64,000 bases of DNA from Stigmatella aurantiaca (GTDB taxonomy: Bacteria; Myxococcota; Myxococcia; Myxococcales; Myxococcaceae): the NCBI RefSeq assembly GCF_900109545.1, contig NZ_FOAP01000018.1:1-64000 (forward strand). Direction: 5' to 3'. Positions 57,425 to 64,000 of the stretch are shown one piece after another. Within the stretch, counting starts at the first letter, position 1; the number at the start of each line of letters is the position of its first letter. The notes beneath the pieces are model-generated. The model was not told where the DNA came from. It did not search any database and saw only the letters and a list, made by a program, of their open reading frames with translations. The position numbers and the translations under genes were made by a program.

Positions 57425-57554
57425 GCTCCCGGAAGTTCCAGGGCCTCTCGCGGGAGTCATTCCTGGAGTCCCACCTGAAGAGAGGGGCTGACGCGGCGTG
57501 ACCTCATGGGTAGGATGTGGGAAGGCCCGTTGATTGCCTTCCTGGAGGTCCACC

Positions 57555-58913
57555 CTGGATACGCTGTCCCCCGAGGCGCTCCCGGACGGGACCCGGCTGG
57601 GCCCTTGGCAGGTGGAAGGCCGCGCGGGGTACGGCACCTATGGCGCAGTTTACCGGGTGCGCCGAACGCGGCGGATCCTTCCTCAGCTCGTAGCCCTCAA
57701 GCTGGCGCGTTACCCGAATGACCTGCGGTTCGAGCGTGAGGCGGAGCTACTCACCCGCATCCGGCACCCCAGCGTCCCGCGCCTGCTGGGACAGGGCACC
57801 TGGAAGGCGAGCCCCCACGGGGACATGCATCCCTATGTGGTGATGCAGTGGGTGGAGGGCCTCCGGCTGTATGACTGGGCGGAGGAGCGGCCGTTCACGT
57901 CCCGCCAGGCGCTGCGGCTGCTGGCCCAGGTGGCACGGGCGCTGGAGGCCACCCACGCCCGCCAAGGACTCCACCGGGACGTCAAAGGCGATAACATCCT
58001 GGTAAGCCCTGAGGGGAAGGCCTTCCTCATGGACTTCGGGTGCGGCACCTGGGCCGGGGCACCGCCACTCACCGAGGGACTGCTGGCCCCTGGCACAAAG
58101 CCTTACCGCAGCCCCGAGGCCCTGCGCTTCCAGTGGGAGCACCGCCGCGAAGCTCACACCCCCTACCGCGCCACGCCCGAGGATGACGTGTACGCGCTGG
58201 GGGTGACAGCCTACCGCCTGTGCACGGGAATTTACCCTCCCCCGGCGACGGACCCATCGCTGGTGGGCGATGATGCAAGGGAGACCCTGGAGGTGATGAG
58301 ACCTCCAGGCCAGCTCAAGCCGCTGGCGCCCTCACTGGAGTCGATCATCCTCCGCATGCTCTCCGAGAACTCCCAGGACCGAGGCAGCGCCGGTGAACTG
58401 GCCGCAGCCCTGGAGACAGCAGCGGCGACCGCCGGGCCAGAGGCCGATAAGCCGCTGCGTCCGAGTGGTTCGCGTGTGGCCGCAGAGGGCATCAAGCGAC
58501 AAACCTCCGAGCCCCGAAATGGATGCCTTCCCATAGTGCTACCGCCCTTAGCGGCTTGGCTCATCATCCTACTCGCGGGGAACTTGAATATGGCGGAACA
58601 CATCGCGCCTCCCTCTAGCCTGGAAGACCGAAAGGCAGTGAGCGTGGCGGATGCGGCCGTAGAGGATTCACCGGTCTCTAGCGTTGCGCACGAACCTGAG
58701 CCAAGCGGATTGACCCTTGAGATGCCCAAGGAGCCTTTACCACGCCAAAGCCGCCCTCCCTGTCCTACCAATCAAGTCAATATCCGCGGAGGCTGTTGGT
58801 TTGAGGTTCCTCAAGCTCCCCCACCTTGCGGAGAAACCTATTACGAATGGAAAAGCTCCTGCTATTTCCCAGTGATTGTGCCACCAAGGCCCCGCACTTC
58901 CGACCAGCCTTAG
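57555..58913 (+). CDS. Membrane-anchored Ser/Thr protein kinase, probable CTG start
   Basis: The protein should begin DTLSPEALPDGTRLG. The codon before that is CTG (57555), exactly six bases past GGAGG (57544-57548). The only other in-frame option is TTG at 57534. About 452 residues. Kinase domain about 15-285: Gly-rich loop GRAGYGTYGAVY, Lys in VALKLAR, HRDVKGDN (about 143-150), DFGCG in place of DFGLA, and activation loop GTKPYRSPEAL. One TM helix lies at about 332-350 (IVLPPLAAWLIILLAGN). The outer C-terminal region is Pro-rich with four Cys (CPTNQVNIRGGCWFEVP, then two more). The C-terminal third is visibly lower in GC than the kinase domain. Confidence 0.87.
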   Translation: MDTLSPEALPDGTRLGPWQVEGRAGYGTYGAVYRVRRTRRILPQLVALKLARYPNDLRFEREAELLTRIRHPSVPRLLGQGTWKASPHGDMHPYVVMQWVEGLRLYDWAEERPFTSRQALRLLAQVARALEATHARQGLHRDVKGDNILVSPEGKAFLMDFGCGTWAGAPPLTEGLLAPGTKPYRSPEALRFQWEHRREAHTPYRATPEDDVYALGVTAYRLCTGIYPPPATDPSLVGDDARETLEVMRPPGQLKPLAPSLESIILRMLSENSQDRGSAGELAAALETAAATAGPEADKPLRPSGSRVAAEGIKRQTSEPRNGCLPIVLPPLAAWLIILLAGNLNMAEHIAPPSSLEDRKAVSVADAAVEDSPVSSVAHEPEPSGLTLEMPKEPLPRQSRPPCPTNQVNIRGGCWFEVPQAPPPCGETYYEWKSSCYFPVIVPPRPRTSDQP

Positions 58914-59844: not shown

Positions 59845-60162
59845 CTACTGAAACCGGCTGCCGGTGACGAGCTGGTTGAGCTCTGAGCCCGACGTAGCAA
59901 TTTCCTGACTCAAGTCCTTGAGAACGCTGAGCAGCGCTGCACGGCACTGCGCAACGGTACGGTCCCCCCCCTTGGCTGTTGTCCCCTCCATGGATGACTC
60001 CCGAGGTGCTGCCACACCCGACAGCCAGCGCATAGGCTCTCCACAGAACCATGTGTCACTCCTGCAAGTGCAGTAGCCGTTATAGTCTGTTCCGGATTGA
60101 GGTTGTTTCGCGTCCTTTCCGGAACCGGAGCAGTGACCTGGCCTCTCTGCGCCGGTGAACAT
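59845..60162 (-). CDS. Short Cys-rich ORF upstream of immunity gene (possible toxin remnant)
   Basis: 105 codons, directly upstream of the Imm11 gene with a nine-base gap. The N-terminal half has five Cys (GHCSG, YCTC, WFCGEP...), the C-terminal half is helical (VAQCRAALLSVLKDLSQEIA). There is no signal peptide. A stop codon two codons before the ATG limits it, and the start lies only 13 bases from the divergent GST start. It may be the rump of a larger secreted toxin, a small effector, or not expressed as such. Confidence 0.4.
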   Translation of the reverse strand: MFTGAERPGHCSGSGKDAKQPQSGTDYNGYCTCRSDTWFCGEPMRWLSGVAAPRESSMEGTTAKGGDRTVAQCRAALLSVLKDLSQEIATSGSELNQLVTGSRFQ

Positions 60163-60175
60163 AGGCTACCTGTCC

Positions 60176-60796
60176 ATGATCAAGCTCCATCAGTTCCAGC
60201 CCTCTGGGAATTGCTACAAGGTCCGCCTGCTGCTGCATCAGCTCTCGATTCCCTTCGAGGTTCGGGAGGTCGACCTCCTGGCGGGCGAGGCGCGCACGCC
60301 GGAGTTCAAGGCCATCAACCCCATTGCCAAGACCCCCACCGTGGAGCTGGAGCCCGGTGTCTTCCTCGCCGAGTCCAATGCCATCCTCTGGTACTTCGCC
60401 GAGGGCACGCCCTTCATTCCCTCGGACCGGCTGGAGCGGGCGCGGATGCTCCAGTGGATGTTCTTCGAGCAGTACAGCCACGAGCCCTACGTCGCGGTGG
60501 CGCGGGCATGGGTCAGCCTCTTTGGTGTTCCTCCCGGAAAAGAGAAGGAGCTGGAGGAGCGCATCCAGAAGGGCTACGTCGCGCTCGACGTCATGGAAGG
60601 TGAGCTGCGCAAGCGGCCTTTCTTCGCGGGCGCGCACTACAGCCTCGCCGACATCGCGCTCTATGCGTACACGCACGTGGCCGAGGAGGGCCGCTTCGAC
60701 CTGAGCCGCTACCCCGCCATCCGCTCCTGGTTCGAGCGGGTGCAGGCCCAGCCCCGCCACCTGCGCATCACCGACACCGTCACCGGGCTCGGATGA
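60176..60796 (+). CDS. Glutathione S-transferase family protein
   Basis: ATG at 60176; 206 residues (a GTG seven codons earlier is possible). The thioredoxin-like N-terminal domain is MIKLHQFQPSGNCYKVRLLLHQ (catalytic-region Ser/Cys about 11-13), with NPIAKTPTVEL as the cis-Pro motif and ESNAILWYF for glutathione binding. The helical domain has FFAGAHYSLADIALYAYTHV. GSTs of this type are common in proteobacteria for detoxification; substrate unknown. It borders the low-GC patch and returns to normal myxobacterial codon bias. Confidence 0.88.
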   Translation: MIKLHQFQPSGNCYKVRLLLHQLSIPFEVREVDLLAGEARTPEFKAINPIAKTPTVELEPGVFLAESNAILWYFAEGTPFIPSDRLERARMLQWMFFEQYSHEPYVAVARAWVSLFGVPPGKEKELEERIQKGYVALDVMEGELRKRPFFAGAHYSLADIALYAYTHVAEEGRFDLSRYPAIRSWFERVQAQPRHLRITDTVTGLG

Positions 60797-60859: not shown

Positions 60860-62038
60860 TCACCGGGAAAGGCCCAGCTCATGGCTGGCGTACGCGAGCA
60901 TGGCCTGATCCCAGTTGACGTCAATGTGAGACGTCATGCTCTGGAGATCCCTCCAGTGCCGCTGGAGGGGGTTGCTCTCGAACCCCGATGACGCGCCCAG
61001 GTGCAGCACCAGGCGCTGGACCGCGTTGACGCACAGCCGCGCCAGGTAAGCGCGATCGCGCTTGAGCGTGAGCCACTCCCCCGGGGACAGCCCCCGCCGG
61101 GCCTCCCCTGCTTCGTGCAAGGTGTGAAGCAGCGAGTCGTAGAGGAGCCGCGCGCACGTGAGCTCGGCCGCGCTCTCCGCGAGCCGCTCCTGCACCGTGC
61201 CTGGGGGGACGCTGGCCCCCGCGCCGCTCCTCTGACGCAGGGCCGTCACGTATTCCTGGTAGGCCCCCTCCGCGCAGCCCAGGATGGGCCCGATGATCGA
61301 GCTGGTCGCATAGGGGATGAAGGGCACCTCGAAGAGGTAGGCGCCCGGATGGACCTCGGCCCCCTCGGGCCTCGCGCCGAAGCACTCCGGCAAGGCCACT
61401 CCCCAGCCGTCCGGGACGAACAGGTGGTCGAACACGACGTCCTTCGAGCCCGTTCCCCGCATACCGGTGACATGCCACGTGTCTTCGACCCGGACCTGGG
61501 AGGGCCGCACCGCCAGCAGGAAGCGGTTGGGCTCCGGCGGTGCCGGGTGGTTCTCACACGGCCCGGTGACGATGAGCCAGGTGGCGTGATCAATCCCCGA
61601 GCTGAAGCGCCAGGTTCCGCTGACCCGGAAGCCGCCGTCCTCCTTCCGGATGGTTCCCGTCGCCGTCACCGACGCGGTGGAGAAGAGCTGCCGGGGCCCC
61701 TCGGCGAACATCTCCTCCTGGCAGGCCCGCGAGAACCGGCACGCGATGCCCGCATGCCCCCCCACGACGCTCATCACCCAGGCCGTGGAAGCACAAGCCC
61801 GCGCGGCGATGCGGGAGGCCGCGACCATCGTTGGCCAGCCGAGTCCCAGCCCGCCGTAACGTGTTGGCACGAGGATCTGCAGGAGGCCGGCGTCGAAGAG
61901 CTCCGCGAGGGTCTCCCGGGAAAGGCTGCGCGCCCGCTCCGTCTCACCGGCACGGGCCCGCCACCTTTCGCTCAGCGCCTCGGCGCGAGCGCACACCTCC
62001 TCATGCCCGGCCCCCGCCGGGGCGCCCCGCGCTGACAT
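60860..62038 (-). CDS. Acyl-CoA-dehydrogenase-fold flavin monooxygenase (HsaA/HpaB-C-like group D)
   Basis: ATG at 62038 has GGGGG suitably upstream; an in-frame GTG at 62056 overlaps the stop of the upstream gene. 392 residues. Acyl-CoA-dehydrogenase layout: N-terminal helices (LSRETLAELFDAGLLQILVPTRYGGLGL), the middle beta domain (GFRVSGTWRFSSGIDHATWLIV) and the C-terminal helical bundle. It ends RHWRDLQSMTSHIDVNWDQAMLAYASHELGL, the ending of two-component FMNH2-dependent hydroxylases rather than of dehydrogenases. The dehydrogenase catalytic Glu is not apparent. It probably hydroxylates an aromatic or carrier-bound intermediate with an external flavin reductase. Coupled to the ligase-methyltransferase gene upstream. 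Confidence 0.82.
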   Translation of the reverse strand: MSARGAPAGAGHEEVCARAEALSERWRARAGETERARSLSRETLAELFDAGLLQILVPTRYGGLGLGWPTMVAASRIAARACASTAWVMSVVGGHAGIACRFSRACQEEMFAEGPRQLFSTASVTATGTIRKEDGGFRVSGTWRFSSGIDHATWLIVTGPCENHPAPPEPNRFLLAVRPSQVRVEDTWHVTGMRGTGSKDVVFDHLFVPDGWGVALPECFGARPEGAEVHPGAYLFEVPFIPYATSSIIGPILGCAEGAYQEYVTALRQRSGAGASVPPGTVQERLAESAAELTCARLLYDSLLHTLHEAGEARRGLSPGEWLTLKRDRAYLARLCVNAVQRLVLHLGASSGFESNPLQRHWRDLQSMTSHIDVNWDQAMLAYASHELGLSR

Positions 62039-62052
62039 GGTGGCGTCCCCCT

Positions 62053-64000
62053 TCACCCGCGGGCGCCCGAGACCTTGCGCATGGCCGGCTTGTCGAAACA
62101 GAACTCGTCGGGAATGACCGGCGGGCCGATCAAGGCGACGAACCGTTCGATGGCGTCCCGGTCGTTCGACGCGACGAACTCATAGAAGTTCGTGCTGTTC
62201 CACAGCAGGTACACGTGCTGGAAGTGCCTTCCGAGCGAGGCCACCAGCGTCTCGTAGTCCACCTGCCCGTTCTCCATCTGCGCCAGCATCTGCTGCTTCT
62301 TCCAGGCGATCTCCTCGGGCGTGAAATAGAAGCTCTTGTGCCGCTCGTCCTTGGCCCGCTCGCGGCGCTCGTATTCCTCGGCGTCCGGATGGTTGAGCTT
62401 CTCCAGGAAGAAGGCCAGGCCCTCGGGCTTGAGCAGCTTCGCGACATGGCCAATCTGGCGATCCCGATCCGTGCCGTAGAACTGGAACGCAGCGGTCTCA
62501 TAGAGATAGTCGACGCCCTCGGCGAACGCGCGGTACTCCGGCTGGCTGGCGAGGACGCTCGCGTCCACCTCCAGGCACGACTTGCCTATGAACTGGGAGA
62601 GCCGGTGGTCCGCGTATTGGTTGAAGGGCTCCTGGTTGGCCTTGTTGGGAGAGCTCGTGAGCGTGCGGATCCGCCCGCCGGAGAAGACCGCGAGCGTGCG
62701 CCCATTCGAGCCGTCGAACGCATCCGCCTCATAGAAGGAGAAGGTTCGATCGCTCCCCTGGGCACGCTCCTCCGAGAAGCGCGTCAGGGCGGCGCCCACG
62801 CGCGACATCTCCTCCAGAATGCAGGGCACGCTCGCGAGGAAGTGAGAGAACAGAGGCCCTGTCTTCCCCACGAGCAGGTCATGGTAGGCCAGCACGCGGG
62901 GGTCCGGGATGCTGCCGCGGAACCGCGTCACGACGGGTTGCCGGGGGACCTGGGTCTGTCCCGTCGCCAATGCATGGAAATGGCCTGCCATCCGGATCAT
63001 CGCGGACTGGGAGAGATACTCCTGGACGTCCGTGGGCTTCGGGCTCTCTGCCGAATCATCCTTGTTCATCTCAAACCTCTTGGAAGTCTTTCCCGTCAAG
63101 GTTCTGGGGAGCGCATCGGTGAACACCACGCTCGTGGGCACCATGTGCCAGTCCAGGGAGGCGGCGCAATGCTGAATCAGCGCCTCGGCGCTGAGCGTGG
63201 CGCCCGCGCGGAGCACGACGTGCGCCCTGGGGACATGGCCCACGGCCTCCTCCGCCACGGGCACCACCACCGCCTCGGCGACGGCCTCGTGTGCCATGAG
63301 CACGGTCTCGATTTCCCGGGGGTTGACCTTGAAACCTCCCCGGGAGAACACGTCGTCCTTCCGGCACACGTAATAGAGATATCCGTCCGCATCGGTCCGG
63401 AACAGATCGCCGGTGAAGAGCACCCGCTCCTCTCCGAAGAGATGCTCCTTGAGCACCTGCGACGTCTGCTCCGGCCGGTTCCAGTACCGCAGCATCACCA
63501 GGTCTCCGGCGACGGCGAGCTGCCCGGTCCGGCCTCGCTCCATGAGCGTCTGGCCGTCGTCATCGACCAGATAGGTCCGGACGCCCGGAATCGCCTTGCC
63601 CACGGAGCCGGGTCGCTGGTCGATCTCCGAGGGGGGCAGGTAGGCCACACGCTTGCACTCCGTCAGTCCGTAGTTGGAGAAGATCCGAAGCTGTGGGAAC
63701 GCGCTCCTCAGCCGGCGGATGTGCTTGAGCGGCAAGGGTTGCCCGCTGCTGGAGATGTAGCGCAGAGGACCGATACTCCCAGGCTCGAGCGTCTCAGCCT
63801 GGCACAGGCGGAACACCGCCGGCGGGAAGACCTGCATGCCCGTCACGTCCTCCCGGCGGATCACCTCCAACATCTGTTCTCCCCGCGCGGGGATTTCCTT
63901 CTCCACCACCGCCGTGCCCCCGAAGAGCAGCGGCATCAGGATGTTGTAGAAGCCGTAGTCCGAGGCCAGCGTCGAGTAGCTCAGGATGGTGTCGCGGGGC
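62053..64000 (-). CDS. Acyl-AMP ligase fused to a methyltransferase-like domain (5' end outside window)
   Basis: At least 648 codons, open to the right edge, so the N-terminus is missing. Residues from the edge read ILSYSTLASDYGFYN..MPLLFGG. Then come the adenylation core motifs YISSSGQPLP, NYGLTECKR, the ATP-binding Asp in LFTGDLFRTDADGYLYYVCRKDD and the C-terminal catalytic Lys in LTGKTSKR. This places it among acyl-CoA synthetases/AMP ligases. After position about 63070 a further 330 residues form a separate region. It has FSFYEADAFDGSNGRTLAVF and GHVAKLLKPEGLAFFLEKL, the latter like post-core motifs of class I methyltransferases, but no clear Gly-rich SAM motif I. No carrier-protein Ser motif is seen. 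It would activate a carboxylic acid, with tailoring by the flavin enzyme next door. Confidence 0.8.
   Translation of the reverse strand, partial: PRDTILSYSTLASDYGFYNILMPLLFGGTAVVEKEIPARGEQMLEVIRREDVTGMQVFPPAVFRLCQAETLEPGSIGPLRYISSSGQPLPLKHIRRLRSAFPQLRIFSNYGLTECKRVAYLPPSEIDQRPGSVGKAIPGVRTYLVDDDGQTLMERGRTGQLAVAGDLVMLRYWNRPEQTSQVLKEHLFGEERVLFTGDLFRTDADGYLYYVCRKDDVFSRGGFKVNPREIETVLMAHEAVAEAVVVPVAEEAVGHVPRAHVVLRAGATLSAEALIQHCAASLDWHMVPTSVVFTDALPRTLTGKTSKRFEMNKDDSAESPKPTDVQEYLSQSAMIRMAGHFHALATGQTQVPRQPVVTRFRGSIPDPRVLAYHDLLVGKTGPLFSHFLASVPCILEEMSRVGAALTRFSEERAQGSDRTFSFYEADAFDGSNGRTLAVFSGGRIRTLTSSPNKANQEPFNQYADHRLSQFIGKSCLEVDASVLASQPEYRAFAEGVDYLYETAAFQFYGTDRDRQIGHVAKLLKPEGLAFFLEKLNHPDAEEYERRERAKDERHKSFYFTPEEIAWKKQQMLAQMENGQVDYETLVASLGRHFQHVYLLWNSTNFYEFVASNDRDAIERFVALIGPPVIPDEFCFDKPAMRKVSGARG

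Follow-up and report, generated by a model that had tools for sequence, protein, structure and literature searches.

The window analysed here, positions 1-64000 of contig C18 in the 9.37 Mb genome of Stigmatella aurantiaca, ends inside a small gene cluster that continues to its right. Four core enzymes, namely an adenylating ligase, a protein with the fold of methyltransferases that use S-adenosylmethionine (SAM), a flavin monooxygenase and an EctC-like cupin, usually accompanied by an exporter of the major facilitator superfamily (MFS), form a conserved unit. We predict, with reasonable rather than high confidence, that this patchily distributed five-gene cassette makes and exports one small amino-acid-derived metabolite. 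By analogy with characterised enzymes, it probably encodes a complete pathway of its own, whose product would be an amino acid with a cyclic amidine, akin to the stress protectant ectoine. Its genes are located as follows.

60860..62056, minus strand: group D type flavin monooxygenase (acyl-CoA-dehydrogenase fold), 398 residues, GTG start
contig 62053-64569, minus strand: fused ligase, whole gene, 838 residues; crosses the window end and was read from the full contig
62053..63060, minus strand: SAM-fold domain, C-terminal part of the fused protein (residues 504-838), assigned by AlphaFold2, VIA-align and relatives
63070..64000 and on to contig 64569 (gene start), minus strand: VinN-like amino-acid adenylation domain (residues 1-500), assigned by Pfam and the VinN match
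contig 64566-65816, minus strand, right of the window: MFS exporter (Pfam MFS_1, 1.5e-33)
contig 65840-66226 from the likely ATG, minus strand, right of the window: EctC-like cupin (Ectoine_synth, NF009806)

The monooxygenase and ligase genes share 4 bases, as do the ligase and exporter genes. An earlier interpretation made from the letters of the window (hereafter, the sequence-only reading) had placed the end of the ligase gene within a few bases of the monooxygenase start, as is the case, and had expected a cluster continuing to the right. It does continue, but with only two more genes (MFS exporter and EctC-like cupin), followed by a glucosidase/trehalase-type gene that is located elsewhere in a congener.

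The genome_contigs collection, covering 84,980 species, was scanned once with the C-terminal extension of the ligase (residues 504-838), and 15 loci were returned. Since 14 of the 15 encode a relative of nearly the whole extension, at 40-63% identity, the extension is no annotation accident; the sequence-only reading had called it unusual and about 330 residues long, and it measures 335. The remaining locus (L019) was dropped, as it had a 37-residue match only and no common neighbours. Together with the window locus and an Agrobacterium vitis plasmid cassette, the scan loci formed a 16-locus set. The ligase, SAM-fold protein, monooxygenase and EctC-like cupin are all present at 16/16 loci, and the genes of the first three are collinear in every one, across at least two phyla. 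Five further genomes (L036, L037, L039, L040 and L066) also have the four core genes, bringing the count to 21/21 loci, which span the window's genus, Pseudomonas, Burkholderia, Variovorax, rhizobia, Streptomyces and Nocardiopsis relatives. All these loci were recruited through the SAM-fold protein, so that the counts say nothing on the ligase or the monooxygenase occurring without it. An MFS gene, belonging to one of two sequence groups, adjoins the cassette in 19 of the 21 loci; in L017 and L037, none of four reference MFS proteins had a match. The EctC-like gene comes first in the window's genus, actinobacteria, Variovorax, Burkholderia and one Pseudomonas (L037), fourth in L010, L011, L015 and L017, and is divergent in Bradyrhizobium and Agrobacterium. 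Over 120 pairs, the distances of the ligase, SAM-fold protein and monooxygenase correlate with r values of 0.89-0.90.

Although the fusion described in the sequence-only reading is real in the window gene, the ligase and the SAM-fold protein are encoded by two separate genes in most relatives, and the fusion is therefore a local feature. Fused genes were seen in Streptomyces sp. CB02400 and, within the window's genus, in three genomes; the fusion arose at least twice independently, the tree forcing 2 changes. The spread of the cassette is patchy. It occurs in 3 of the 39 genomes around the window's own (the window's own counted), all of one genus. The SAM-fold protein was detected in 11/249 Pseudomonas genomes (G044, G045 and G048 being previously known carriers), 2/246 Streptomyces genomes (centre G042 included) and 3/249 Burkholderiaceae genomes (centre G051 included); each sample includes carriers known beforehand, and 11/249 is thus no unbiased rate. 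A search of viral contigs with six peptide patterns retrieved no relative.

By sequence, the C-terminal 335 residues had no convincing match in the PDB (best E 0.02). Structure prediction had been put forward for the extension in the sequence-only reading. An AlphaFold2 model built on an alignment of 16 sequences reached a mean pLDDT of 91.4 and a pTM of 0.91. VIA-align compared it at a tied Z of 20.0 with YecO (2.5 Å over 215 residues), CmoA (2.8 Å, 219) and CysG (2.4 Å, 209), and Foldseek gave E values of 4e-10 to CysG and 1e-9 to CmoA. As modelled, the extension has the class I methyltransferase (Rossmann-like) fold. A distant sequence kinship with CmoA, the carboxy-SAM synthase, accompanies the shared fold: a family profile including plasmid relatives reaches CmoA chains at E 8.6e-4 and 9e-4, and hhalign of the SAM-fold family against Escherichia coli CmoA returns a probability of 90.7%. 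The extension differs from CmoA in an additional N-terminal part and in two replacements at the nucleotide site. At the place of motif I, which is G-x-(G/A)-x-G in 6/6 plasmid relatives, 9/9 cassette rows read DAFDG. Past beta2, where CmoA carries an acidic Asp, the aligned residue is Thr135. A methyltransferase-like domain without motif I, as discerned in the sequence-only reading, is thus what the model and the alignment contain. The stand-alone cassette protein of L010 had no NCBIfam match at E 0.001, the CmoA model TIGR00740 included, and the E. coli plasmid relative scored 26.1 bits against TIGR00740, for a cut-off of 193.3.

The azetidine-carboxylate (AZE) synthases AzeJ and VioH resemble the extension in their class I methyltransferase fold, unusual motif I and natural-product setting, and this identity was considered. 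However, neither of the AZE-synthase signatures, PFNxxGN and RxxYYxxC (PMC11794875), was seen by eye in the alignment of the SAM-fold family, and a phmmer search of the PDB with the extension returned no AzeJ or VioH chain. That AzeJ is also missing among 50 rows of the VIA-align comparison carries no weight.

On the ligase, Pfam recognises AMP-binding (residues 8-363) and AMP-binding_C (419-494) and no carrier domain, in agreement with the sequence-only reading; the C-terminal part is also without a Pfam match. In a profile search of solved structures, the best single-domain match was VinN, at 281.9 bits (entries 3wvn/3wv4, which we take to be VinN; the record itself reads 'Non-ribosomal peptide synthetase'). 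Gramicidin synthetase LgrA outranks it only via two domains, of 193 and 217.5 bits, and VinN also ranks first when a short stretch of the window ligase is used as the query. According to a passage of PMC7756342, the substrate-reading residues of VinN are Asp230, Ser299 and Arg331. These residues (chain positions 246, 315 and 347, an offset of 16) align with D204, S275 and R307 of the window ligase, within the common ECKR motif. The D and the R (ECKR) are found in 16/16 cassette ligases, and the Ser299 column holds Ser or Thr. Because VinN is the best single-domain match and its substrate-reading residues are kept, the probable substrate of the ligase is an aspartate-like amino acid, activated at its beta-carboxyl. 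The sequence-only reading had named an acyl-AMP ligase, which the protein probably is not. A fatty-acid or aryl ligase was likewise set aside in favour of the amino-acid-adenylating VinN, although the order of the NCBIfam matches, given below, speaks the other way. The likeness to VinN, which adenylates the beta-carboxyl of 3-methylaspartate or aspartate, stops at the enzyme: neither a stand-alone carrier protein partner nor a pyridoxal-phosphate-dependent decarboxylase was found among the cassette proteins scanned, and the ligase is here fused to a SAM-fold domain.

The EctC-like cupin scores above the family cut-offs of both PF06339 (Ectoine_synth; 128.9 bits, cut-off 27) and NF009806 (161.1 bits, cut-off 128). 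The iron triad, Glu57, Tyr84 and His92, is invariant in 15/15 cassette EctC rows, as are Ser23, Arg25, Thr40 and Tyr52, so that most ligand residues of ectoine synthase are kept (residue roles as given in a passage of PMC6344544). The setting is different from that of ectoine synthase, however, as EctA and EctB are not among the cassette proteins annotated and the partners are the ligase, the SAM-fold protein and the monooxygenase. A search with the diaminobutyrate transaminase model TIGR00709 at E 1e-90 gave a match in 9/16 cassette genomes and none in the other 7/16, among them that of the window. In some hosts, a diaminobutyrate-like unit would then need another source, perhaps SAM. Five actinobacterial cassette genomes encode a separate, higher-scoring EctC, each beside a transaminase-family match.

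The monooxygenase contains Pfam Acyl-CoA_dh_2/_N domains, and its nearest solved relatives in the PDB are 3-HSA hydroxylase and HPA hydroxylase C2. Among NCBIfam models, it matches HsaA with 223.6 bits (cut-off 450) and the HpaH equivalog with 180 bits (cut-off 650). Judged by these fold domains and by its kinship to HsaA and HpaH, it is a group D type enzyme, as the sequence-only reading had proposed. It differs from HsaA and HpaH-C2 in falling well under the equivalog cut-offs, and no flavin reductase was identified in the cassette.

These assignments can be arranged into a single pathway. L-aspartate, or a closely similar compound, would be adenylated by the ligase at its beta-carboxyl and then, for want of a carrier protein, joined as an amide to a small amine. 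The EctC-like cupin would close this amide to a cyclic amidine, as ectoine synthase does with N-gamma-acetyl-diaminobutyrate. A building block would be supplied or modified by the SAM-fold domain, which is tied to the ligase through fusion or adjacency; the monooxygenase would oxidise an intermediate, and the MFS protein would export the product.

Several observations weigh against this pathway. If the alpha-amine attacked a beta-aspartyl amide, a strained four-membered ring would have to form, and hence the amine that cyclises must be contributed by the other partner. In NCBIfam, the top-ranking models for the ligase are TIGR03098 and those of long-chain acyl-CoA ligases, all of them under their cut-offs. 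SAM binding by the extension is doubtful, judging from the replacement of motif I and of the acid after beta2. In the cupin, column 38 is Cys in 15/15 cassette EctC proteins and Asn in PlEctC, and the EctC Trp (Trp21) is displaced to position 18; given both changes, the substrate of the cassette EctC may not be diaminobutyrate-like. Column 38 is not strict, since the EctC proteins beside EctB in L055 and L063-L065 carry His38. Finally, the EctC distances correlate with those of the other three proteins at r values of only 0.50-0.65 over the same 120 pairs, which allows for an independent exchange of EctC.

The SAM-fold domain could be an ordinary methyltransferase acting on the ligase product, for instance by esterifying or N-methylating it, with the rest of the pathway unchanged; we give this a substantial chance, if somewhat short of even. 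The class I methyltransferase fold is predicted with high confidence, CysG and BelI, which we take to be natural-product carboxyl methyltransferases, are among the close structural neighbours, and the annotation of several plasmid relatives reads class I SAM-dependent methyltransferase. Nevertheless, a common fold shows no function, and the cassette proteins depart from their plasmid relatives precisely at motif I, where 9/9 rows carry DAFDG, and from CmoA in the Thr after beta2.

A second possibility, which we regard as rather unlikely, is that the domain uses SAM without methylating. It would transfer the 3-amino-3-carboxypropyl group, or cyclise SAM as azetidine-carboxylate synthases do, yielding a four-carbon diamino unit for EctC. 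This would fit the EctC-like pocket, largely kept even though seven of the 16 genomes lack a TIGR00709 match at the threshold used, the relative on E. coli plasmids that adjoins a LysE exporter, and the distant relationship of the family to CmoA, an enzyme that remodels SAM itself. Against it stand the AZE-synthase signatures (PMC11794875), not seen in the alignment, the phmmer search without an AzeJ or VioH chain, the transaminase-family match in nine of the 16 genomes, and the doubtful SAM binding. A more specific form of this idea, prompted by the need of some cassette hosts without a TIGR00709 match for another diaminobutyrate-like source, is a second route to ectoine-type cyclic amidines that dispenses with EctA and EctB. 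The SAM-fold enzyme would take the 3-amino-3-carboxypropyl group from SAM, the VinN-like ligase would join this unit to beta-activated aspartate, and the EctC-type cupin would close the ring; the resulting 2-substituted ectoine-like amino acid would be oxidised by the group D monooxygenase. We deem this full scheme improbable; if true, one class of 'orphan' EctC would gain a function.

That the cassette makes plain ectoine or another osmolyte, or is a degraded ectoine operon, appears very improbable. The EctC-like protein does score above the family cut-offs and, according to a passage of PMC5924519, a solitary EctC of Pseudomonas syringae restored ectoine synthesis in an ectC mutant of Halomonas elongata. 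Yet EctA and EctB were not found in the cassette, and the five actinobacterial genomes already mentioned have a separate, higher-scoring EctC, each beside a transaminase-family match. Moreover, ectoine synthesis has no use for the ligase, the SAM-fold protein or the monooxygenase, yet these three are conserved with EctC in 21/21 loci. That the ligase and the monooxygenase are unrelated neighbours without a common pathway can hardly be right, as no point in its support was found and their genes are collinear with that of the SAM-fold protein throughout the 16-locus set, in at least two phyla.

Passages of a review from 2018 (PMC5924519) and of a structure paper from 2019 (PMC6344544) state that the role of orphan or solitary EctC proteins is unresolved, and we surveyed how far the cassette accounts for them. 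The 249 Pseudomonas genomes contained 18 EctC matches in 17 genomes, 11 of them in cassettes, with EctC within about 3 kb in each of the 11 carriers of the SAM-fold protein. The others comprised one canonical EctC, which adjoins EctB (G133), a cassette remnant made up of an EctC and MFS pair with a monooxygenase fragment (G127, L035:6707-8851), a truncated EctC with no cassette genes in 13 kb (G232), and four EctC fragments (G218, two in G186, and G113). Full-length non-canonical EctC genes in these genomes thus belong to the cassette in 11 of 12 cases. Burkholderiaceae were different: 20 of 249 genomes had an EctC match, 18 of them above the cut-off, vs three with the SAM-fold protein. We opened 17 EctC places, from Burkholderiaceae and Pseudomonas G133, the reference L055 not being counted. 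EctB neighbours EctC at four of them (three Burkholderiaceae and G133), and nine hold other orphan EctC types without EctB or cassette genes in 10-11 kb (L051, L052, L054, L056, L057, L058, L059, L061 and L062). G635 has the full cassette, G622 has EctC near a weak ligase match (29%), and a cassette-type EctC without partners occurs in G784 and in G790, there on a contig of 3.2 kb (L049:4641-5027 and L050:266-649). The L035, L049 and L050 sites are decayed or isolated cassette remains. The cassette as the context of all orphan EctC was rejected, as the Burkholderiaceae orphans are mostly of other types; it houses one class of these proteins.

Outside the cassette, relatives of the SAM-fold domain were found in 199 plasmid records. 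Those on rhizobial and agrobacterial plasmids share 30-34% identity with it, and five stretches were opened:

L024:6079-9463, rhizobial/agrobacterial plasmid stretch
L025:5880-9865, rhizobial/agrobacterial plasmid stretch
L028:6093-12442, rhizobial/agrobacterial plasmid stretch
L030:5856-9893, rhizobial/agrobacterial plasmid stretch
L029:3055-7945, rhizobial/agrobacterial plasmid stretch

The SAM-fold gene follows a LuxR regulator in four of the five. Nearby are a protein of 396-468 residues without a Pfam family (5/5), a GNAT protein (3/5) and an MFS protein (2/5), possibly making up a quorum-regulated small-molecule locus. On E. coli plasmids, the relative adjoins a LysE exporter (L027:7019-8548; L026:4610-5560); this pair has matches in 24 of 5426 E. 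coli genomes, 19 of them over at least 80% of the pair, and all 30 places are on plasmids. Both plasmid settings would suit a small exported molecule.

The gene set itself is already known as a list in one genus. A passage of a Pseudomonas pan-genome paper (PMC8719888) lists an 'Ectoine-like 1' biosynthetic gene cluster in Pseudomonas Ps663, consisting of an AMP-dependent ligase, a hypothetical protein, a dehydrogenase, an ectoine synthase and an MFS transporter, and gives no function or product there. Its gene order is the same as in cassette loci L010, L011 and L015; the two were equated by this gene list alone, not by sequence comparison. Our literature search on the cassette and EctC, with most subscription papers outside its coverage, turned up no paper giving the enzymes' function, in line with the uncharacterised biosynthetic cluster, here a conserved gene set, that the sequence-only reading had proposed. 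Relative to that passage, and as far as this search shows, the following are new: the occurrence far outside Pseudomonas, in at least two named phyla; a fold and an altered site for the 'hypothetical protein'; a prediction of the ligase's substrate class; and the fusion. This links one class of orphan EctC to a constant set of genes whose substrate class is predicted, and makes its role a question that five genes suffice to test. In addition, a SAM-fold family with an unusual nucleotide site is seen in three settings: the cassette, LuxR-linked rhizobial plasmid genes and enterobacterial plasmids.

Annotation around the cassette covered nine proteins (P0001-P0009), from 60155 to 72591. The sequence-only reading had suggested looking rightward for polyketide synthase (PKS), non-ribosomal peptide synthetase (NRPS) or transport genes; the MFS exporter answers to the last, but no PKS or NRPS gene is among these nine proteins. 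The cassette is flanked by the following genes.

60155-60796, opposite direction to the cassette: glutathione S-transferase (GST) gene, on the other flank
contig 66347-68035: alpha-glucosidase/trehalase-type gene, next beyond the EctC-like cupin

Neither is a cassette member, because their homologues lie far from the cassette in the congener G005, where, on one contig, the cassette is at 6.52 Mb, the GST homologue at 1.41 Mb and the glucosidase homologue at 4.56 Mb. Further to the right, contig C18 carries phage-tail-like genes (TIGR02242; baseplate TIGR02243) at 69519-72591 (L002:9519-12591), which may belong to a tail island or to a contractile injection system. Within the window, an open reading frame at 57534-58913 resembles, by eye, a Ser/Thr protein kinase with a C-terminal membrane stretch.

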